The notes under the pieces: generated by a model
Database searches by the model: none
Told to the model about the DNA's origin: nothing
The model's input: only the letters and a program-made list of their open reading frames with translations
DNA from: Candidatus Mediterraneibacter guildfordensis
GTDB lineage: Bacteria; Bacillota; Clostridia; Lachnospirales; Lachnospiraceae
DNA length: 64,000 bases
NCBI GenBank assembly: GCA_019112735.1
Contig: DXIS01000017.1
Span: 1 to 64,000, forward strand
Reading direction: 5' to 3'
Part shown: piece by piece, positions 4,280-61,649 of the stretch
How positions within the stretch are numbered: position 1 is the stretch's first letter
Layout: every line of letters begins with the position of its first letter
Translations under genes and position numbers: made by a program

Positions 4280-5626
4280 ATGGGATTTTCTATCGAAGCC
4301 GGCGTATCGGTGCTGACCGTATTTCTGCAGGGGCTGCTCAGCTTTTTCTCGCCCTGCGTCCTCCCTCTGGTGCCTCTGTATCTGGGGTATCTCTCAGGAG
4401 GGGTTAAAGGAGAGGTGGAAGAGGCGGATGCCGGGGCCGCTGCTGCAAAGGCGAAGCTTTTCCTTCGCGTTCTCTGCTTTACGCTGGGGATCAGCGGCGC
4501 ATTTTTCGTCCTCGGTCTGGGCGCCTCGGCCGCGGGCAGTTTCTTCGGGGAACACCGGATGCTGTTCGCGCGGATCGGCGGCGTGCTGATCATTTTGTTC
4601 GGCTTATATCAGCTGGGCCTGTTCGGCAGCTCCAGGGTGCTCGGGGAAGAGCACCGGCTGCCGTTCAGGCTGGAGAAGATGACCATGTCCCCGCTCACGG
4701 CGCTGATCATGGGATTTACATTCAGCTTTGCCTGGACGCCCTGCGTGGGACCGGCGCTTACAAGCGTGCTCCTGATGGCCGGAAGCGCGCAGAGCAGCGG
4801 GCTGGGATTCCTGCTGATCGGGGTGTATACGCTGGGGTTCATCCTGCCGTTCCTTGCGGCCGGGATCTTCACGGCGCAGCTGCTCGGATTTTTCCGCCGC
4901 CATATGAAGGTTGTCCGCTATACCGTGAAGGCGGGCGGTGTGCTGATGATCCTTATGGGTGCGCTGATGTTTACCGGGAAGATGAACGATATTACCGGAT
5001 ATCTGTCCGCCGTACAGACGGAAACGGTACAGGAGGATCCGGACCGGGAGAATGCCGGAGACGCAGCGGAAGAACCGTCGGACATAGACGGCGGTGCGGA
5101 TGGCACGACTGGCAGCGCGGATGAGGGCACAGCGGATGATGAGGATGATAAGAAAAAAGAGGAGCGGGCTCTGACGCCGGCGCCGCTTGCAGACCTTGAA
5201 CTGACGGATCAGTTCGGAAATGTGCACAGGCTGGAAGATTATAAAGGAAAGGTGGTCTTTCTGAACTTCTGGGCCACCTGGTGCGGACCGTGCCGCAATG
5301 AGATGCCGGATATCCAGAAGCTCTACGAGGAGTACGCCGCCCGGGGAGATGAAGCTGAAGTAGTGATCCTGGGCGTGGCCGGACCGGGGATCGGCCAGGA
5401 GGGATCGGCGGAAGATATCGCCGCATTTATGGAGGAAAACGGATATACCTACCCGGTGCTCATGGATGAGAGCTCGGAAATGTTTATGCAGTACGGGATC
5501 TCTGCATTCCCGACCACATTTATGATCGATAAAGACGGAAATGTATACGGATACGTCCCCGGTCAGATGACGGAAGATATCATGAGAAGCATCATAGATC
5601 AGACACTGAATGGCAGCGCTTCATAG
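4280..5626 (+). CDS. CcdA-type membrane electron transporter fused to TlpA/ResA-like thioredoxin
   Basis: 448 residues combining two normally separate proteins. Residues 1-~235 are a six-helix CcdA/DsbD-beta domain with its paired redox cysteines at C26 (FFSPCVLPL) and C155 (AWTPCVGPAL). A charged acidic linker of about 60 residues follows. Residues ~298-448 are a thioredoxin fold with the active site W334-C335-G-P-C338, ending with the cis-Pro region SAFPTTFMI. CcdA passes electrons from cytoplasmic thioredoxin across the membrane; the tethered domain can use them outside to reduce disulfides, for cytochrome maturation or repair of oxidised surface proteins. A single-gene relay is the inference. 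Start 4280 follows AGGAGATAAG. No cytochrome genes are adjacent. Confidence 0.88.
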   Translation: MGFSIEAGVSVLTVFLQGLLSFFSPCVLPLVPLYLGYLSGGVKGEVEEADAGAAAAKAKLFLRVLCFTLGISGAFFVLGLGASAAGSFFGEHRMLFARIGGVLIILFGLYQLGLFGSSRVLGEEHRLPFRLEKMTMSPLTALIMGFTFSFAWTPCVGPALTSVLLMAGSAQSSGLGFLLIGVYTLGFILPFLAAGIFTAQLLGFFRRHMKVVRYTVKAGGVLMILMGALMFTGKMNDITGYLSAVQTETVQEDPDRENAGDAAEEPSDIDGGADGTTGSADEGTADDEDDKKKEERALTPAPLADLELTDQFGNVHRLEDYKGKVVFLNFWATWCGPCRNEMPDIQKLYEEYAARGDEAEVVILGVAGPGIGQEGSAEDIAAFMEENGYTYPVLMDESSEMFMQYGISAFPTTFMIDKDGNVYGYVPGQMTEDIMRSIIDQTLNGSAS

Positions 5627-29319: not shown

Positions 29320-30513
29320 ATGGCAGAGGCAAAGAGAGATTATTACGAAGTGCTGGGCGTGGGTCGGGACGCAGATGAGGCATCCATTAAAAAAGCCTAC
29401 CGTGCACTGGCGAAAAAATATCATCCCGACATGAATCCGGGTGACAAGGAAGCGGAGAAGAAGTTCAAAGAAGCTTCCGAGGCATATGCCGTTCTGAGTG
29501 ATCCGGACAAACGCCGTCAGTATGACCAGTTCGGTCATGCGGCCTTCGAGGGCGGAGCAGGCGGCGCCGGCGGATTCGGCGGATTCGACTTCAGCGGTGC
29601 GGATTTCAGTGATATTTTCGGGGATATATTCGGGGATCTGTTCGGCGGCGGACGCCGGGGCGGACGTGCCGGCAACGGGCCGATGAAGGGCGCGAATATC
29701 CGAAAGAGCATCCGCATCACGTTTGAAGAGGCTGTGTTCGGATGCGAAAAGGAACTTGACCTTGTCCTGAAGGATCCGTGTGAAGACTGTAACGGGACGG
29801 GGGCGAAGCCGGGAACATCTCCTGAGACCTGTCCGAAGTGCGGCGGCCGGGGACAGGTGGTTTACACCTCCCAGTCCTTCTTCGGCACCGTGCAGAATGT
29901 GCAGACCTGTCCGAACTGCGGCGGTTCCGGCAAGGTGATCAAAGAAAAGTGCCCGAAATGTGCGGGTACAGGCTATACATCCAGCCGGAAGAAGATCCAG
30001 GTATCGATCCCGGCAGGTATTGACAACGGTCAGAGCGTGCGCATCCGTGACAAGGGCGAGCCGGGGCTCAACGGCGGCCCGAGAGGAGACCTGCTTGTGG
30101 AGGTCAATGTATCCCATCATCCGGTATTCCAGAGACAGGACGTGCATATCTTTTCAACAGTCCCGATCTCATTTGCCGTGGCTGCGCTGGGCGGCGATAT
30201 CCGGATCAAAACGGTGGACGGAGATGTGATTTATACAGTAAAACCGGGAACAAAGACCGATACAAAAGTCCGTCTGAAAGGCAAGGGTGTGCCGTCACTG
30301 CGCAATCCGCAGGTGAGGGGCGACCACTATGTCACCCTTGTGATCCAGACGCCGGAGCGGCTGAGCGCCGAGGCAAAAGAAGCACTCAGGAGATTCGATG
30401 AACTCACCGGAAATACCCTGCATCAGAACGATGATGCGGACGACTCCGGAAAAGGAGAAAAGAAGAAAAAGAAAGGCTTCATGGACAAGATGAAAGAAGT
30501 CTTTGAGGATTAA
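29320..30513 (+). CDS. dnaJ: Chaperone DnaJ (Hsp40)
   Basis: 397 residues with all DnaJ parts in order: J domain 5-70 with HPD (YHPDMNPGD), Gly/Phe-rich region 75-115, four zinc-binding repeats [24 protein letters not shown] and CPKCAGTG at ~150-215, then the two substrate-binding beta domains. A Lys-rich end ([19 protein letters not shown]) closes the protein. DnaJ brings substrates to DnaK and stimulates ATP hydrolysis. Start 29320 follows GAAAGGTAGAGTATTCCAGTT, a spacing slightly long for a ribosome binding site. Last gene of the heat-shock operon; a large palindromic region follows. Confidence 0.97.
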
Positions 30514-30556
30514 CAGGAGCTGGCAGCATAGAATATAACAATAACTTTCCATTACA

Positions 30557-30785
30557 ATGCGGATTCACGGAATACGGGATAATGCCTTTCCGTCTCCGGT
30601 TCCGCAGCCTAATGAAAAGTTAAAAACCGGATCATTGACAAAAAACAGAGCCGCAGATGAGGAACTCACTAACGTTCAGACAACCTCATCTGCGGCTCTA
30701 AAGTCAATTTTCCGGTTTTTGCTTTTCCTAAGACCGCTCCACAGTCACCGGTCCGGCATTATCCCGTATTCCGTGAAAGTCGCAT
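30557..30785. repeat. Large imperfect palindrome (229 bp) after dnaJ
   Basis: Nested inverted arms: 30564-30586 with 30754-30776 (23 bp perfect), AAAAACCGG (30622-30630) with CCGGTTTTT (30712-30720), ATTGAC (30634-30639) with GTCAAT (30703-30708), and a perfect 16-bp inner stem 30647-30662 with 30684-30699. ATGCG/CGCAT mark the ends. The inner part (30622-30720) ends in TTTTTGCTTTT and can terminate dnaJ transcripts. No open reading frame of note inside; a MITE-like origin is possible. Confidence 0.8.
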
Positions 30786-30848
30786 CCGATCTAAAAATAA
30801 AGAAATGGGATGATGTTTTTATAAACACCGTCATATTTCTAAAAATTT

Positions 30849-31126: not shown

Positions 31127-31234
31127 ATCCTTTAAGTGGTTTCCATTTATGCTTCAAGATTGTAGAACAGATCCGGCAAACAACAGAATAACAGCAAATT
31201 TCCTGTTTTCCGAACGGGCGATTTAAAAGTATCG

Positions 31235-31475
31235 GGCAGTCGATTCTGTGATGGGGAGATGATTCTGCGCAGCAAAGATGTGGGCAGGTGAATCTGAGAG
31301 AATTATAGAAAAAATCAGGCCACAAAAAGTCGGCGTTAAAAGAGGAATTGGAGTTGTCTGAGCCTGAAAGGCGAGTTCTCCAATTCCTCTTTTTGTATTT
31401 AGCCGGCTTTTCGTGGCCTTAGATTTTTCATAATTCTTGAACTGAACCTGTACACATCTTTTGCTGTGTCAGAAT
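31235..31475. ncRNA. Structured element, copy 1 (putative ncRNA or palindromic mobile repeat)
   Basis: A long stem spans 31299-31437: AGAATTAT/ATAATTCT, AGGCCAC/GTGGCCT and AAAAGTCGGC/GCCGGCTTTT stack, enclosing a second stem AAAAGAGGAATTGGAG with its complement near 31378-31393 and a small GCCT-GAA-AGGC cap. A separate hairpin follows (31448-31472, ACACA/TGTGT and CTG/CAG). A homologous copy at 59262-59501 keeps the unpaired blocks (GTGATGGGG, TGAATCTGAGA, GGCGTTAAAAG, TTTTTGTATTTAGCCGG, TTGAACTGAA) while changing stem bases in compensating pairs. Strand of function unknown. It lies downstream of both convergent neighbours, dnaJ and aroA. Confidence 0.6.
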
Positions 31476-31540
31476 CCATTCACTATTCCCTGAGCGCTGC
31501 CATGTTCATTAATGGATCAGCTCGTCCGGAAAACAGGAAG

Positions 31541-32830
31541 TTACAGCAATTCTTCGAATGTATCATAAAATGCAGGATAGGACACATCCACGCACCTGCT
31601 GTCCAGGATCATGGTATTCCCCTCCGCCACAAGTGCGGCGATGCTGAATGCCATGGCAATGCGGTGGTCGAGCAGGGTATGGATCACAGCCCCTTTCAGC
31701 TTCCCGCCGACGATGATCATACCGTCCTCGGTGGGGGTGACATTGCAGCCCATGGCTTTGAGGTTGTCGCATATGGTTTCGATGCGGTCTGTTTCTTTTA
31801 CTTTCAGTTCAGCGGCGTCTTTGATGACAGTCGTGCCTTCTGCAACAGCGGCCATGACAGCGATGACCGGGATCTCATCGATCAGGGTCGGGATAATGTC
31901 CCCCTGGATGGTTGTGCCGTGTAATCTGCTTGTGCGGACGAGGATGTCAGCTATCTTTTCGCCGCCTTCAGTGCGCTCGTTCAGGAGCGTGATATCGCCG
32001 CCCATGTCTTCGCATACTTTCAGGATGCCGGCACGGGTCGGATTGATCCCGACGTTTTTGATAAGGATCTCAGAGTCCGGAACGATCAGGCCGGCTGCGA
32101 TAAAGTAAGCGGCTGATGAGATGTCTCCAGGCACAGTGATCTTCTGGCCGTACAGCCCGCTGCACGGGTTGATGACGGCAGTTGCCTTCGTACTGCCAAG
32201 TTCGTGTATGGAACGGATATCCGCGCCGAATTCCTTCAGCATCAGTTCCGTATGGTTGCGGGAGAGTGAGGGCTCGCTCACGGAGGTTTCCCCGTCTGCG
32301 TAGAGTCCGGCCAGCAGGATGCAGGATTTCACCTGGGCGGATGCGACCGGTGATTCGTAATGGATCCCGTGGAGTTCTCCCGGAGTGATATAGAGCGGGG
32401 CGCAGCCGTTGCGCAGGATGCTTGAAATATTGGCGCCCATCTCAGTCAGTGGATCGATGATCCGTTTCATCGGACGTGAGTTCAGTGATTCATCGCCGGA
32501 AATCTTGGATTCGAAGGGCTGTCCGACCAGGATCCCGGACAGCAGACGTGTTGTCGTCCCGCTGTTGCCTACATCGAGGATGTCCGTTGGTGCCGAGAGT
32601 CCGTGCAGTCCCTTCCCGTGCACGAGCACTGTATCTTTGTTATCATCTATATCGATCCCAAGCGTGCGGAAACAGCGGATCGTGGCAAGGCAGTCCGCCC
32701 CTTCCAGAAAGTTGTGGATCTCAGTTGTCCCGTCTGCGATGGAGCCGAACATCACGCAGCGGTGGGAGATGGATTTGTCCCCCGGAACGCTGATCGTTCC
32801 TTTCAGCCCTGTAATACTGCATAATTCCAT
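31541..32830 (-). CDS. aroA: 3-phosphoshikimate 1-carboxyvinyltransferase (EPSP synthase)
   Basis: 429 residues. AroA joins phosphoenolpyruvate to shikimate-3-phosphate in the shikimate pathway. Seen: GTISVPGDKSISHRCVMFGSIADG at residues 10-33 (substrate lysine), LDVGNSGTTTRLLSG near 90, and the C-terminal KVKETDRIETICDNLKAMG and DHRIAMAFSIAAL. The start at 32830 has AGAAAGGACAACATGAACC upstream on the minus strand. It follows tyrA by 39 bases and is likely in one operon with it. A structured element lies about 65 bases past its stop. Confidence 0.96.
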   Translation of the reverse strand: MELCSITGLKGTISVPGDKSISHRCVMFGSIADGTTEIHNFLEGADCLATIRCFRTLGIDIDDNKDTVLVHGKGLHGLSAPTDILDVGNSGTTTRLLSGILVGQPFESKISGDESLNSRPMKRIIDPLTEMGANISSILRNGCAPLYITPGELHGIHYESPVASAQVKSCILLAGLYADGETSVSEPSLSRNHTELMLKEFGADIRSIHELGSTKATAVINPCSGLYGQKITVPGDISSAAYFIAAGLIVPDSEILIKNVGINPTRAGILKVCEDMGGDITLLNERTEGGEKIADILVRTSRLHGTTIQGDIIPTLIDEIPVIAVMAAVAEGTTVIKDAAELKVKETDRIETICDNLKAMGCNVTPTEDGMIIVGGKLKGAVIHTLLDHRIAMAFSIAALVAEGNTMILDSRCVDVSYPAFYDTFEELL

Positions 32831-56712: not shown

Positions 56713-56995
56713 TGTAGAAAGCGTTGAAGAGGACAGTAGGCTGTCTGCGCATCCAAAGAGAGGGATCCGCATGGTGAGAGGATCCTGATGCGGGACATGA
56801 CTGAAGACCACCTCCGAGCGGCCTTAATAGGGCACGGTGATTCCGTTATCATCACATGAATTAAGATGGTTTTCCATGGAAAACAAGCAGGGTGGAACCG
56901 CGGGAGCATCTCCCGTCCCTGTGTGGAGTGTTTCCGTGCGGCCGCATCGATTTCAGAGTGATCAGGAGACATTCTTTCGGGAGTGTCTCTTTTTT
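56713..56995 (+). promoter_or_regulatory. T-box riboswitch controlling thrS
   Basis: The 14-base T-box core AGGGTGGAACCGCGGG is at 56889-56904. Upstream stem I includes AGTA in GGACAGTAGGC (56731-56741) and, on its 3' side, GAAGACCACC with a plausible specifier codon ACC (Thr) at 56807-56809. The terminator is at 56965-56995 (GGAGACATTC with GAGTGTCTCT, then T6). Uncharged tRNA-Thr pairing with specifier and T-box favours the antiterminator and thrS transcription. Between the toxin remnant (56566) and the promoter the DNA is A/T-rich with no other signal. Confidence 0.93.
56965..56995 (+). terminator. T-box terminator hairpin
   Basis: GGAGACATTC (56965-56974) pairs with GAGTGTCTCT (56981-56990), one G-U, and a T run follows. 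It is the off-state of the thrS leader. Confidence 0.9.
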
Positions 56996-57079: not shown

Positions 57080-58981
57080 ATGAAGATCACATTGAAAGAC
57101 GGTTCATTCAAAGAGTATCAGGAACCAAAGAGCGTGTATGAGATAGCGCTGGATATCAGTGAAGGGCTTGCAAGAGTAGCGACAGAGGGCGAGGTTGACG
57201 GTGAGGCAGTGGATCTGCGTACCGTGATCGACCATGACTGCGAACTCAATATCCTGACATTTAACGATGAGAAAGGCAAAGGTGCGTTCCGTCACACCGC
57301 ATCCCACATTATGGCCCAGGCCATCAAGAGACTGTATCCGGAGACAAAGCTGGCGATCGGTCCGTCCATCGCAGACGGATTCTACTATGACGTGGACAGA
57401 GAGACGCCGTTTACCGCGGATGATCTGGAGAAGATCGAGGCGGAGATGAAGAAGATCGTCAAGGATAATTTGGAAATTAAGCAGTACACGATGCCGAGGA
57501 ATGAGGCGATCGCGTATTTTAAGGAGAAAGACGAGCCTTACAAAGTGGAACTGATCGAGGACCTGCCGGAGGATGAGGTTATCAGCTTCTATTCCCAGGG
57601 CGAGTTTACCGATCTCTGTGCCGGTCCTCATCTGATGACCACCAAGCCGGTGAAGGCGTTCAAGCTGACAAGCCTGGCGGGCGCATATTGGAGAGGCGAC
57701 GAGCACAATAAGATGTTGCAGAGGATCTACGGTACGGCATTCCCGAAGAAGGCGGAACTGGAAGAATACCTGACTATGATCGAAGAGGCGAAGAAGCGCG
57801 ACCACAGAAAGCTTGGCAAAGAGCTGGGACTTTTCATGATGCGCGAGGAGGGCCCGGGATTCCCGTTCTTCCTGCCCAACGGCATGGTATTAAAGAATAC
57901 GCTGCTTGACTACTGGAGAGAGATCCACCGCAGAGCCGGCTACGTGGAGATCAGCACACCGATCATGCTGAGCCGCCACCTCTGGGAGACATCCGGCCAC
58001 TGGGATCATTATAAAGAAAATATGTATACGACTGTGATCGACGATGTTGATTTTGCGGTAAAACCGATGAACTGCCCGGGCGGAATCCTTGTATACGAAT
58101 CCGAGCCCCGTTCTTACCGCGATCTGCCGATCCGCATGGGCGAGCTCGGTCTGGTACACCGTCATGAGAAATCCGGCCAGCTTCACGGCCTGATGCGCGT
58201 GCGCTGCTTCACACAGGATGATGCACATATCTTCATGACGCCGGAGCAGATCAAAGACGAGATCAAAGGTGTAGTAAAACTGATCGACGAGGTATACAGC
58301 CTCTTCGGATTCAAATATCATGTAGAGCTTTCCACCCGTCCGGAGGACAGCATGGGAAGCGACGAGGACTGGGAAATGGCGACAGACGCGCTGAGAGCCG
58401 CGCTCGACGACATCGGACTTCCGTATGTGGTAAATGAAGGCGACGGCGCATTCTACGGACCGAAGATCGACTTCCATCTGGAAGATTCCATCGGACGTAC
58501 ATGGCAGTGCGGAACCATTCAGCTTGACTTCCAGCTTCCGCTCCGGTTTAACCTGGAGTACACGGGCGCAGACGGAGAGAAGCACAGACCGATCATGATC
58601 CACCGCGTGGTATTCGGCTCTATCGAGCGGTTCATCGGAATCCTGATCGAGCACTTCGCAGGCGCATTCCCGACCTGGCTTGCACCGGTACAGGTGAAAG
58701 TGCTTCCGATCTCAGATAAGCACATGGAGTACGGAAATAAAGTCCTTGCTGCTCTGCAGGATGCAGGCATCCGTGCGGAGATCGACACAAGGGCGGAGAA
58801 GATCGGATACAAGATCCGTGAAGCGCAGATGAAGAAGATCCCGTACATGCTCGTCGTCGGCGCAAAAGAAGAGGAAGAGGAGAAAGTGTCCGTCAGAAGC
58901 CGTGCAAACGGAGATGAAGGACAGAGCGGACTTGGAGAATTCATCGCGAAGATCAAAGAGGAGATCGCACAGAAGAAGTAA
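57080..58981 (+). CDS. thrS: Threonyl-tRNA synthetase
   Basis: 633 residues, normal length. N-terminal TGS domain (residues 1-62), the editing N2 domain with HTASHIMAQAIKRLYP (His-rich site for removing Ser) and its partner DLCAGPHLMTT, then the class II core: motif 1 near MVLKNTLLDYWREIHR, motif 2 LVHRHEKSGQLHGLMRVRCFTQDDAHIF, motif 3 HRVVFGSIERFIGILIEH, and the C-terminal anticodon-binding domain from ~535. Zinc ligands Cys/His/His are in CPGGI, the motif 2 extension and the motif 3 area. Start 57080 follows AGGGAAAGGAAGAGGAAAG. Controlled by the upstream T-box. Confidence 0.97.
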   Translation: MKITLKDGSFKEYQEPKSVYEIALDISEGLARVATEGEVDGEAVDLRTVIDHDCELNILTFNDEKGKGAFRHTASHIMAQAIKRLYPETKLAIGPSIADGFYYDVDRETPFTADDLEKIEAEMKKIVKDNLEIKQYTMPRNEAIAYFKEKDEPYKVELIEDLPEDEVISFYSQGEFTDLCAGPHLMTTKPVKAFKLTSLAGAYWRGDEHNKMLQRIYGTAFPKKAELEEYLTMIEEAKKRDHRKLGKELGLFMMREEGPGFPFFLPNGMVLKNTLLDYWREIHRRAGYVEISTPIMLSRHLWETSGHWDHYKENMYTTVIDDVDFAVKPMNCPGGILVYESEPRSYRDLPIRMGELGLVHRHEKSGQLHGLMRVRCFTQDDAHIFMTPEQIKDEIKGVVKLIDEVYSLFGFKYHVELSTRPEDSMGSDEDWEMATDALRAALDDIGLPYVVNEGDGAFYGPKIDFHLEDSIGRTWQCGTIQLDFQLPLRFNLEYTGADGEKHRPIMIHRVVFGSIERFIGILIEHFAGAFPTWLAPVQVKVLPISDKHMEYGNKVLAALQDAGIRAEIDTRAEKIGYKIREAQMKKIPYMLVVGAKEEEEEKVSVRSRANGDEGQSGLGEFIAKIKEEIAQKK

Positions 58982-59006
58982 GGATATATTTATCTGAATG
59001 AAAATC

Positions 59007-59143
59007 AATCAGCGCGAAGATATGTTGCTCTAGCACACGCTTTCGCTCGGGACGCAGCATAGCAGTACATAAGGCGGCAAAAAACGCCGCCAAAGTACTG
59101 ATGCTGCTTTACGGTGCTCTCGCAACATATCTTCGCGCTGATT
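59007..59143. repeat. 137-bp palindrome after thrS
   Basis: Outer arms 59007-59028 and 59122-59143 are 22-bp perfect complements. Inside: AGCAC (59032-59036) with GTGCT (59114-59118), CAGCAT/ATGCTG and CAGTAC/GTACTG (59055-59068 with 59095-59106), and a GGCGGC/GCCGCC cap (59073-59078, 59086-59091). It is 25 bases after the thrS stop and probably helps end its transcript. From 59144 to 59261 no motif was recognised. Confidence 0.8.
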
Positions 59144-59261
59144 TTCCTTTCACAGACAAAATCTTCCCCCGTTCTGCAGTATTCCGCTATAGAGGTGGTG
59201 CTGGGGAGCATTGCGGGAGCCTGCCCACGGCTGATTCCTTCCGGGGAGTGGTTTGCGGCAG

Positions 59262-59501
59262 TGTGCAGCCGGTGAAGTGATGGGGCGATGATCCCGGCAG
59301 ATAAAGGGCGGATGGATGAATCTGAGAAAATTGTATGATAAAATTCGGATACGGGAATCCGGCGTTAAAAGCGAAATTGGAGGTGTTTGAGCCGTAAGGC
59401 GAGTTCTCCAATTTCGCTTTTTGTATTTAGCCGGATTTCCGTATCCGTTATTTTATCACAATTTTTGAACTGAATCCGGACGCCCTTTTATCTGTCCGGG
59501 A
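59262..59501. ncRNA. Structured element, copy 2
   Basis: Homologue of 31235-31475. Stems: AAAATTGT/ACAATTTT and GATAAAAT/ATTTTATC, CGGATACGG (59346-59354) with CCGTATCCG (59439-59447), GAATCCGGC with GCCGGATTT, AGCGAAATTGGAG (59370-59382) with CTCCAATTTCGCT (59406-59418), a GCC-GTAA-GGC cap, and a 3' hairpin CCGGAC/GTCCGG (59476-59499). Several stems differ from copy 1 on both strands so that pairing is kept. It ends 13 bases after the stop of the minus-strand glgX gene and lies downstream of thrS. Confidence 0.6.
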
Positions 59502-59513
59502 TCTCTCGTACCA

Positions 59514-61649
59514 TTAATTAATTGTCTGCCCGCTGCCGCAGGCCGCGCACCCCACAAACACGATCACCGACCGCTCCCCGAGCGTCAGCACCTTCTCCGC
59601 TGTGGGCATTTTATGCTCTTTGAATGTCTGCTGTTTCGGATCTCCGGTGTTGACGGCGATCTTCCAGCAGTATTCTTCGGGCAGGTCGGGCAGGGTCAGC
59701 TCCGCAGGGTACCAGTGGGCGTTGACCGCCACATAGACCAGGTCTTCCTGTTCTTCTTCCTCATCGTAGCCGGAGAAGAGTACACAGGATACATAGCCTT
59801 CTTCCAGATGTTCGTTTTCCCAGGGCCTCAGCCCGTGGATGCTCATGGACGGAAAGCCGATGTAGCTCGGCTCCAGATCCCGGCGGATGGCCGGATGTTT
59901 GTGCCGGAAGGCGATCATATACCGGAAGAATTCAAAGAGGTCTTTGTTTTTCTTAAGCAGGTTCCAGTCCAGCCATGAGATCTGGTTGTCCTGGCAGTAT
60001 GGATTATTATTGCCGTGGCGCGTGTCGCCGAACTCGTCGCCAGAGAGGAACATGGGCGTTCCACGGCTGCACATGAGCACGGCACAGGCGTTCTTGATCA
60101 TGCGGAAGCGGAGTGCCATGACATCCGGATCGTCCGTTTCGCCTTCTGCGCCGCAGTTCCAGCTGTTGTTGTCATCGAAGCCGTCGGTATTGTCCCAGCC
60201 GTTGGCTTCATTGTGCTTTACATTATAGCTGTACAGGTCGTACAGGGTGAATCCGTCGTGGCAGGTCAGGAAATTGACGGATGCGTTGCCGCCCCGGTAA
60301 ACTGGGTCATAGAGGTCCGGGGATCCGGTCATCCGCTGGGCTGCGATCCCGGCCATCTGCAGATCTCCTTTCAGGAAGCAGCGCATGTCGTCCCGGTAGC
60401 GCCCGTTCCATTCCGCCCATCGTTTCCAGGACGGGAATGAGCCGACCTGGTAGAGCCCGCCGGCGTCCCATGCTTCGGCGATGAGCTTGACATTTCCGAG
60501 GATCGGGTCAAAGGCCAGACTGCGGAGGAGCGGCGGCTGGTTAAGGGGCGTGCCGTTCTCGCTGCGTCCCAGGATGGAAGCCAGGTCGAAGCGGAAGCCG
60601 TCCACCCGGTAATCCGTGACCCAGTAGCGCAGACAGTCCAGGATCAGGTCCTGCACCACCGGATGGTTGCAGTTCAGGGTATTGCCGCACCCGCTGAAAT
60701 TATAGTATTTGCCGTCAGGAGTGAGCATGTAGTAGATGTTGTTGTCAAATCCTTTGAAACAGAAGGAAGGACCGATCTCATTGCCTTCGGCGGTATGATT
60801 GAACACTACGTCCAGGATCACGTCGATCTCGTTGTCGTGGAGCGCTTTTATGAGTTCTTTCAGTTCCATCCCTTCCCGGTTGTATTCAATCCGGGAGGAG
60901 TAGCTTGTATTCGGGGCGAAGAAACAGACCGGATTGTACCCCCAGTAATCCAGAAGGTCGTTGCCGTCGATGTTCCGCACGTCCCGCATCTCGTCAAATT
61001 CAAATACGGGCATCAGCTCGACCGCGTTGATCCCCAGCTTCTTCAGATAGGGGATCTTTTCTTCCAGCCCACGGAAGGTTCCGGGGTAATTAACCTTTGC
61101 GGAAGGCGACTGGGTGAATCCGCGCACATGGAGCTCGTAGATCACCAGGTCTTCCATGGGGATGGGCTCGCTGCGTTCCAGTCCCCAGTCAAAGTTGTTC
61201 TGTACCACGCGGGCGCGGTAGCCGTGCTTTGAATTGTTCGTGCAGCCCCAGCGGCTCTGGCCGGTCACTGCCCGGGCATAGGGATCCAGCAGGATCTTGG
61301 TCTTATCGAAGCGGAGCCCTTTTTTCTCATCATAGGGGCCGTCCAGCCGGTAGGCGTACTCGAATTCTTCCACGTCCAGGCCGAAGACGATCATGGAATA
61401 GACGAAGCCGATCCGGTAATTATCCGGAAACTTCAGCGCGGCGTAGGGCTCTTCCGCCTCCCGGTGGAAGAGGAGCAGTTCGCAGGAAGTGGCTCCGTGG
61501 GACTGGATCGTGAAATTCACGCCGCCCGGGATCGCGGTGGCGCCGAAGAACCGGAAGAATCCGGGGCGCACCGGGAAACCGGCGATCGTATCAAGTGGTT
61601 TTAGCTGGTCTTCGGGCTGGATGACCAGGTCTATTGTGTGAAGTGCCAT
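59514..61649 (-). CDS. glgX: Glycogen debranching protein GlgX (isoamylase-type GH13)
   Basis: 711 residues. N-terminal CBM48-like domain (PGGVNFTIQSHGATSCELLLFH), then the isoamylase/GlgX barrel: IYELHVRGFTQSPSAKVNYPGTF, LLDYWGYNPVCFFAPNTSYS, LDVVFNHTAEGNE, DGFRFDLASILGR (nucleophile), LIAEAWDAGGLYQVGSFPSW (acid Glu) and FLTCHDGFTLYDLYSYN. It hydrolyses alpha-1,6 branches of glycogen after phosphorylase action. ATG 61649 is chosen since GAGGAGATAACCGTT lies before it; ATG 61682 would add 11 residues. It is not near other glycogen genes and is convergent with thrS. Confidence 0.92.
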   Translation of the reverse strand: MALHTIDLVIQPEDQLKPLDTIAGFPVRPGFFRFFGATAIPGGVNFTIQSHGATSCELLLFHREAEEPYAALKFPDNYRIGFVYSMIVFGLDVEEFEYAYRLDGPYDEKKGLRFDKTKILLDPYARAVTGQSRWGCTNNSKHGYRARVVQNNFDWGLERSEPIPMEDLVIYELHVRGFTQSPSAKVNYPGTFRGLEEKIPYLKKLGINAVELMPVFEFDEMRDVRNIDGNDLLDYWGYNPVCFFAPNTSYSSRIEYNREGMELKELIKALHDNEIDVILDVVFNHTAEGNEIGPSFCFKGFDNNIYYMLTPDGKYYNFSGCGNTLNCNHPVVQDLILDCLRYWVTDYRVDGFRFDLASILGRSENGTPLNQPPLLRSLAFDPILGNVKLIAEAWDAGGLYQVGSFPSWKRWAEWNGRYRDDMRCFLKGDLQMAGIAAQRMTGSPDLYDPVYRGGNASVNFLTCHDGFTLYDLYSYNVKHNEANGWDNTDGFDDNNSWNCGAEGETDDPDVMALRFRMIKNACAVLMCSRGTPMFLSGDEFGDTRHGNNNPYCQDNQISWLDWNLLKKNKDLFEFFRYMIAFRHKHPAIRRDLEPSYIGFPSMSIHGLRPWENEHLEEGYVSCVLFSGYDEEEEQEDLVYVAVNAHWYPAELTLPDLPEEYCWKIAVNTGDPKQQTFKEHKMPTAEKVLTLGERSVIVFVGCAACGSGQTIN

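Follow-up and report, generated by a model that had tools for sequence, protein, structure and literature searches.

Giant hairpins with covarying stems at converging gene ends in Mediterraneibacter: a candidate family of mobile extragenic palindromes

The window analysed here is a stretch of 64,000 nucleotides of Candidatus Mediterraneibacter guildfordensis DNA (contig DXIS01000017.1, positions 1 to 64,000), taken from a genome of 2.4 Mb in 40 contigs (denoted G000, the source genome). Two of its intergenic spaces are occupied by large palindromes. An earlier note, made from the letters of the window, had pointed out that 31235-31475 can be aligned with 59262-59501 over the whole length, the unpaired blocks being conserved and the stems changed on both sides together, and that both lie between convergent genes. 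Both observations hold: the first copy is found between dnaJ (+) and the EPSP synthase gene (-), the second between the threonyl-tRNA synthetase gene (+) and an alpha-amylase-family gene (-), which we take to be of the glycogen-debranching type. Each copy is part of a composite, composite 1 consisting of units B, C and A and composite 2 of unit E and copy 2; composites of giant hairpins of this kind reach approximately 1 kb. The features are as follows.

29320..30513, + strand: dnaJ, left convergent neighbour of composite 1
30549..30808, - strand: hairpin unit B (type 1, inverted with respect to A), in the space past the dnaJ stop codon, from its fold
30606-30742, + strand: covariance-model match of unit B, 109.1 bits
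30828..31176, no strand assigned: unit C, AT-rich and palindromic with CCGTAT/ATACGG motifs, between B and A, from its fold and from matches in genomes G019, G030 and G031
31196..31542, + strand: hairpin unit A (type 1), full palindrome of ~347 nt, fold z -12.0, ends from copy alignment; terminal inverted repeats TTTCCTGTTTTCCG / CGGAAAACAGGAA at these ends
31198..31215, + strand: left terminal inverted repeat of unit A, pattern match with 2 mismatches
31295-31435, - strand: covariance-model match of unit A, 131.6 bits
31355..31377, + strand: apical loop of unit A, TGTCTGA-mini-hairpin-GAGTT (reverse complement AACTC-n-TCAGACA), from the sequence
31524..31541, - strand: right terminal inverted repeat of unit A, at the EPSP synthase stop codon, pattern match with 2 mismatches
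31541..32830, - strand: EPSP synthase gene, right convergent neighbour of composite 1
57080..58981, + strand: threonyl-tRNA synthetase gene, left neighbour of composite 2
58982..59167, no strand assigned: unit E, type 2 giant hairpin with motif GCTTTCGCTCGG, beginning at the threonyl-tRNA synthetase stop codon, from its fold
59243..59553, + strand: copy 2, a diverged type 1 hairpin of ~311 nt that overlaps the last codons of the amylase-family ORF, fold z -14.8
59323-59463, - strand: covariance-model match of copy 2, 135.4 bits
59514..61682, - strand: alpha-amylase-family gene with an isoamylase N-terminal module, right neighbour of composite 2

None of 100 shuffles of unit A, and none of 100 of copy 2, folds as well as the natural sequence (z -12.0 and -14.8). 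The extent of 241 nt originally given to the element proved too short, as the stems continue outward and the near-complete hairpins measure 310-347 nt. Unit folds in the window span about 190-350 nt, outside the short 20-40 bp size of REPs. Unit B is homologous to unit A and lies in the opposite orientation. The CCGTAT/ATACGG array of unit C looks like multiple putative protein-binding sites, and the unit is itself dispersed in relatives (G030, C43 25340-25705; G031, C80 1148-1467). Unit E belongs to the same family as the second hairpin of the elements in G073, a closed genome of the genus; in these type 2 hairpins the loops are conserved and the stems variable (six representatives below 75% identity, from 23 distinct stretches). 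Type 2 hairpins, with the motif given above and a branched apex, accompany type 1 hairpins (window 58982-59167; G073 L127-L133 and L179, L342).

Neither copy has an Rfam match at gathering score, in agreement with the earlier statement that no RNA family could be assigned. The best sub-threshold match of both copies is to a microRNA model (45.1 and 38 of 211 bits), which we take to reflect the long hairpin only. The sole gathering-score match in an Rfam scan of the window lies elsewhere and is a T-box leader (56715-56923, RF00230, 104 bits) upstream of the threonyl-tRNA synthetase gene.

The element had been thought to exist in two copies, which was wrong. A DNA search of the source genome lists 25 matches, in which some palindromes appear once for each strand, and the covariance model gives 29, in which this may likewise be so. 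These dispersed copies are 88-97% identical, with the best full-length ones at 94-97% over 31235-31475. As is expected of a repeat, several contigs of the source genome end inside an element copy, and the elements seem to break assemblies of these gut bacteria. Full composites, for example that on contig 16 (~941 bp), have the ends AAATTCCTGTTT...AAACAGGAATTT or near variants of them; a search of the source genome with the end pattern returns 24 matches, against 0 for a reversed control.

A covariance search of relatives had been proposed in the earlier note, and the model built on the element core (R1) extends the family well beyond the source genome: at least 973 matches are counted, with some palindromes entering twice (once per strand), in 48 of the 58 genomes of the genus Mediterraneibacter. 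Four of these genomes have at least 55-56 matches each; copy numbers are rough, since up to 56 candidates per genome were scored in the genus and 11 in a sample of the order. In that sample, drawn evenly, R1 matches six of 295 genomes, the source genome among them. By DNA search nine of 61 genomes matched, and the whole composite used as query matched 20 of the 58 genus genomes, many at the hairpin apex only. R1 also matches over its full length in Diplocloster agilis and in two species of Hungatella, H. effluvii and H. hathewayi. Their hairpins are of equal or greater length, with predicted energies of -230 to -357 kcal/mol in 400 nt. The D. agilis hairpin at L214 (~5120-5530; predicted -357 kcal/mol in 400 nt) carries the same apical motif and, over a length of ~400 nt or more, has few mismatches. 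In a genome of another family (G241, C1 397040-452349), three of the four model matches fall within ~55 kb, perhaps inside one mobile region. A nucleotide search of plasmid and phage collections with unit A gave no match, nor did two motif patterns searched in viral contigs. Motif matches outside Lachnospiraceae-type hosts were not accepted as true members and are taken for chance or convergence, given weak model scores (Arsukibacterium, Anaerostipes, Paceibacterota), a score of 37 bits over part of the model (Desulfobacteraceae) or no model score at all (Alicyclobacillus).

The apical motif was first noticed as common to unit A, G073 and other sequences. DNA matches in relatives that were restricted to the apex yielded it in the form AACTC-mini-hairpin-TCAGACA, which was used to collect relatives. 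Among 89 distinct occurrences (loci L001-L197, most of them fetched through similarity to the element), 88 have at least 9 of 12 complementary flanking bases. Alignment A2 contains 30 representatives that are <80% identical in an ungapped comparison of the arms, what remained of 33 after one redundant sequence and two with an altered arm had been removed. Entry into A2 needed the loop motif and at least 9 of 12 complementary bases beside it; because the motif was the search key its constancy in A2 is by construction, and only the internal loops count as independent evidence of conservation. These loops, TAAA..CA and TTAAC, are nearly constant in A2, and the stems between them differ almost everywhere; the loops are kept in Hungatella and only partly in Diplocloster. 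Double changes are present at 29 of the 30 core pairs. The covariation score, for a structure derived from A2 itself, is 0.847 as opposed to 0.257 (sd 0.015) for shuffled alignments, none of 500 being as high, and 0.11-0.22 for slid structures; alignment A3 was fitted to the model. The outer 16 pairs lie beyond the complementarity filter, and here 85% of cells are paired and all 16 positions have double changes. Approximately nine-tenths of core cells are standard pairs, and about 87-91% are strictly Watson-Crick. Selection on the secondary structure, which the earlier note had proposed from two copies, is strongly supported. A hairpin whose stems turn over almost completely and whose internal loops do not is a rare natural data set, in which the recognised features are directly readable.

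All nine close pairs of cores on opposite strands (excluding one palindrome read twice) are arranged + then -, and the same arrangement is seen in the window (B, A) and on contig 16; it is the inverted pair that characterizes REPINs. The other type 1 cores are single or accompanied by a type 2 hairpin.

Without selection of the fold on one particular strand, G-U and A-C cells would be expected in equal numbers. A2, with its 30 rows, has 43 G-U and 21 A-C cells (by rows, 15:4) when read on the strand complementary to AACTC..TCAGACA. The same TGTCTGA..GAGTT strand gives 37:7 (by rows, 19:3) in 29 dereplicated rows not close to A2, from which 14 of 54 rows at least 85% identical to an A2 row had been removed and in which L268:2278-2405 is included. 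The ratio becomes 41:10 under a choice of rows without seven low-scoring matches, which were taken as opposite palindrome strands; L268:2278-2405, one of the seven, is a real core with the motif. For unit A and copy 2 this strand is the + strand of the window. Young copies of A and B have ratios of 53:23 and 63:38, and young copies in G073 are without asymmetry (71:71). Since G-U exceeds A-C on that strand only, it is seemingly this strand that folds, whether as RNA or as single-stranded DNA. The wobble excess could also be mimicked by mutation that is biased between the strands.

In the closed genome G073, 20 of 24 examined loci have the paired ends AAATCTGAGTTTG...CAAACTCAGATTT (at most 2 mismatches), 244-865 bp apart. 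The longest ORF inside these 20 elements is 147 aa, and like MITEs they thus combine terminal repeats with the lack of a coding gene. Every one of the 20 borders directly on the 3' end of one or more reading frames. Many start T|AA, and the stop codon of the upstream gene then takes its last two bases from the element. An automatic count places 12 of the 20 between convergent genes and none between divergent ones; once the translations of eight doubtful cases had been read, the count stood at 16 convergent, 4 tandem and 0 divergent (judged by eye). TA is present on both sides of 5 of the 20 (by eye).

Comparison of orthologous sites reveals differing inserts at one position. The convergent site on contig 16, with flanks that are 87-98% identical, differs in its insert among four close species; all four inserts begin and end at nearly the same positions. 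No clear target-site duplication is evident at this site.

G000: A+D+B, 941 bp
G030: mosaic of A end, C, D and B end, 686 bp
G031: unit C, 328 bp
G019: short C, 165 bp
G070, more distant (71% over the site): short spacer only

The spacer in G070 (L189, 1658-1760) consists of roughly three tandem copies of a 17-mer at the gene end (by eye). At the dnaJ locus, G031 is without unit A and was considered as an empty site; this was rejected, as slippage deletion is likelier given that GTT is common to the breakpoints and that the left terminal repeat has been kept.

We interpret the feature as an apparently undescribed family of non-autonomous, REPIN/MITE-like mobile extragenic palindromes that are probably recognised as a folded single strand, and give this reading a probability of roughly 0.55. 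Its basis is the combination of similar copies at dispersed places, terminal repeats, inserts that differ at one site, location at gene ends, covarying stems and an excess of wobble pairs on one strand. The earlier note had left three readings side by side. That of a mobile hairpin is now the best supported, by the dispersed copies, the terminal inverted repeats and the differing inserts at one orthologous site; a 3'-end element is compatible with it as a possible second role in view of the position at stop codons, and an ncRNA gene would fit the wobble excess on one strand.

In the mechanism that we propose, an element without a gene, bounded by terminal inverted repeats and built of imperfect hairpin units of ~200-400 nt that are often paired inversely around a spacer, would be recognised as a folded single strand by a mobility protein acting in trans. 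The folded strand would be single-stranded DNA in replication or transfer or, less likely, RNA. Recognition of this kind would make the loops the binding determinants of the protein and would leave the sequence of the stems free to drift while they continue to pair. Elements may persist between converging genes because insertion there would be least harmful and would supply a stop codon and a strong hairpin for the ends of both genes.

A structured RNA, made by read-through from the converging genes or from a promoter of its own, is a possible alternative that we consider less probable. The palindrome would then be a 3'-end element (a bidirectional terminator, a 3' stabiliser or an RNase III substrate) or an ncRNA, and its spread would be secondary. 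RNA predicts that G-U should exceed A-C on one strand only, as it does in both alignments and in the young copies of A and B, and this excess fits RNA as well as single-stranded DNA; the young G073 copies, however, lack it. The edges of the element coincide with the stop codons of the flanking genes and the inner stem of unit A is flanked by an A-tract and a T-tract, as a role at transcript ends would have it, but many families are without a T-tract past the inner stem (by eye) and paired units are in opposite orientation. A third site, the gap between one gene pair in 19 species, bears on the same question. The gaps are bimodal (64-200 nt in nine species, 329-784 nt in 10) and the long ones are mostly filled by the giant structure, least so in G035, a pattern that favours the RNA, but a crude scan for a strong intrinsic terminator on some strand fails to separate the two groups (5/9 short and 4/10 long gaps). 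The idea that ordinary terminators are displaced by the element was suggestive by eye and was set aside on the same counts.

It is improbable, though conceivable, that the palindrome is neutral or selfish and has arms kept complementary by mutation, through template switching or mismatch repair of extruded cruciforms, with no need for a selected fold. Quasipalindrome correction is a known process; the high proportion of strictly Watson-Crick core cells (given above) would suit it, as would the lower divergence of A copies in stems (0.067) than at unpaired positions (0.127). The same process would erase the asymmetric internal loops, which were not part of the search key and are kept across families and in Hungatella, and a wobble bias on one strand would not be expected from it. 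This explanation is already weakened.

A mobile palindrome, the reading that we prefer, requires a protein to move it. The few candidate ends examined in G073 include no autonomous, transposase-bearing copy. Four unpaired terminal-repeat matches in that genome were rejected as transposase carriers, three of them (L173, L180, L185) apparently lacking any continuation into element sequence and the fourth (L179) being another element. A Y1 family search of the genus identifies, besides IS200-type copies, a protein mostly of 255-310 aa that usually occurs once per genome (NCBIfam REP_Tyr_transpos, E 6.5e-20, 71.5 bits, below the curated 80). This REP-type protein is encoded in 38 of the 58 genomes including the source genome, 33 of the 48 with elements and five of the 10 without. 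Its gene was not found in G072, a genome with 42 element matches that is rated 100% complete, and no convincing hairpin was detected near Y1 genes in 20 loci (best E 0.35). In the source genome (contig 24, L291 2252-3070) and in G073 (L293 2391-3215) the gene is flanked by the same neighbours, which by recognition are presumably a glycyl-tRNA synthetase and an aminopeptidase. The Y1 transposase gene, usually single and with neighbours shared between distant species of the genus, looks as if it were domesticated. As the motor of the elements it was rejected, being unsupported by this distribution and neighbourhood. It is thus very unlikely that the elements are REPINs proper with the REP-associated tyrosine transposase, present in most genomes of the genus, as their motor. 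The 38 carriers (the source genome included) and the inverted-pair architecture would suit this reading, but the gene shows no association with the presence of elements, is missing from complete genomes rich in them, such as G072, and is not flanked by hairpins in the 20 loci. The conserved internal loops can be used to seek the mobility protein.

More speculatively, the family may represent a new class of mobile element that is inherited as a fold. At least two giant single-strand hairpin architectures would travel together, swap modules at converging gene ends and double as the 3' boundary of both neighbouring genes; the protein that recognises them, from the loops and the shape of one strand, would belong to none of the known transposase families. 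We hold this wider proposal to be doubtful at present.

The elements are abundant and lie at the 3' ends of many genes, yet they matched no Rfam family; in the literature searched, at the level of titles and abstract openings, no description of them was found, and they are to that extent apparently undescribed. At the same level, the REP, BIME and REPIN literature describes multicopy extragenic palindromes, mosaics in alternating orientation and a role of the folded strand (PMC2817692, PMC3733652, PMC3116915, PMC6006769), with REPs of 20-40 bp (PMC3733652). The present elements resemble these systems in being multicopy extragenic palindromes and mosaics of units in alternating orientation. They differ in that the units are 200-400 nt, with hairpins ~10 times longer and conserved internal loops, and in that they show no association with a RAYT-like gene. 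Since the family has neither the size of REPs nor their transposase, and since no target duplication of the kind by which MITEs are judged could be defined, we have filed it under neither name. MITEs such as Correia and RUP are dispersed elements without genes that are bounded by terminal inverted repeats. All of this applies to the element described here; unlike a MITE it has an interior that is a covarying hairpin, and neither a parent IS (among the ends examined in G073) nor a clear target duplication was found. BOX and ERIC are modular or palindromic stem-loop repeats of intergenic regions; the present stem-loop repeats are likewise intergenic, but are much larger and have at least two distinct conserved apex types, and are set apart from BOX and ERIC by description. 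The attC sites of integrons are imperfect palindromes in which the folded strand rather than the sequence is conserved. No cassette genes were seen in our elements, but they share with attC both the imperfect palindrome and the retention of the fold over the sequence.
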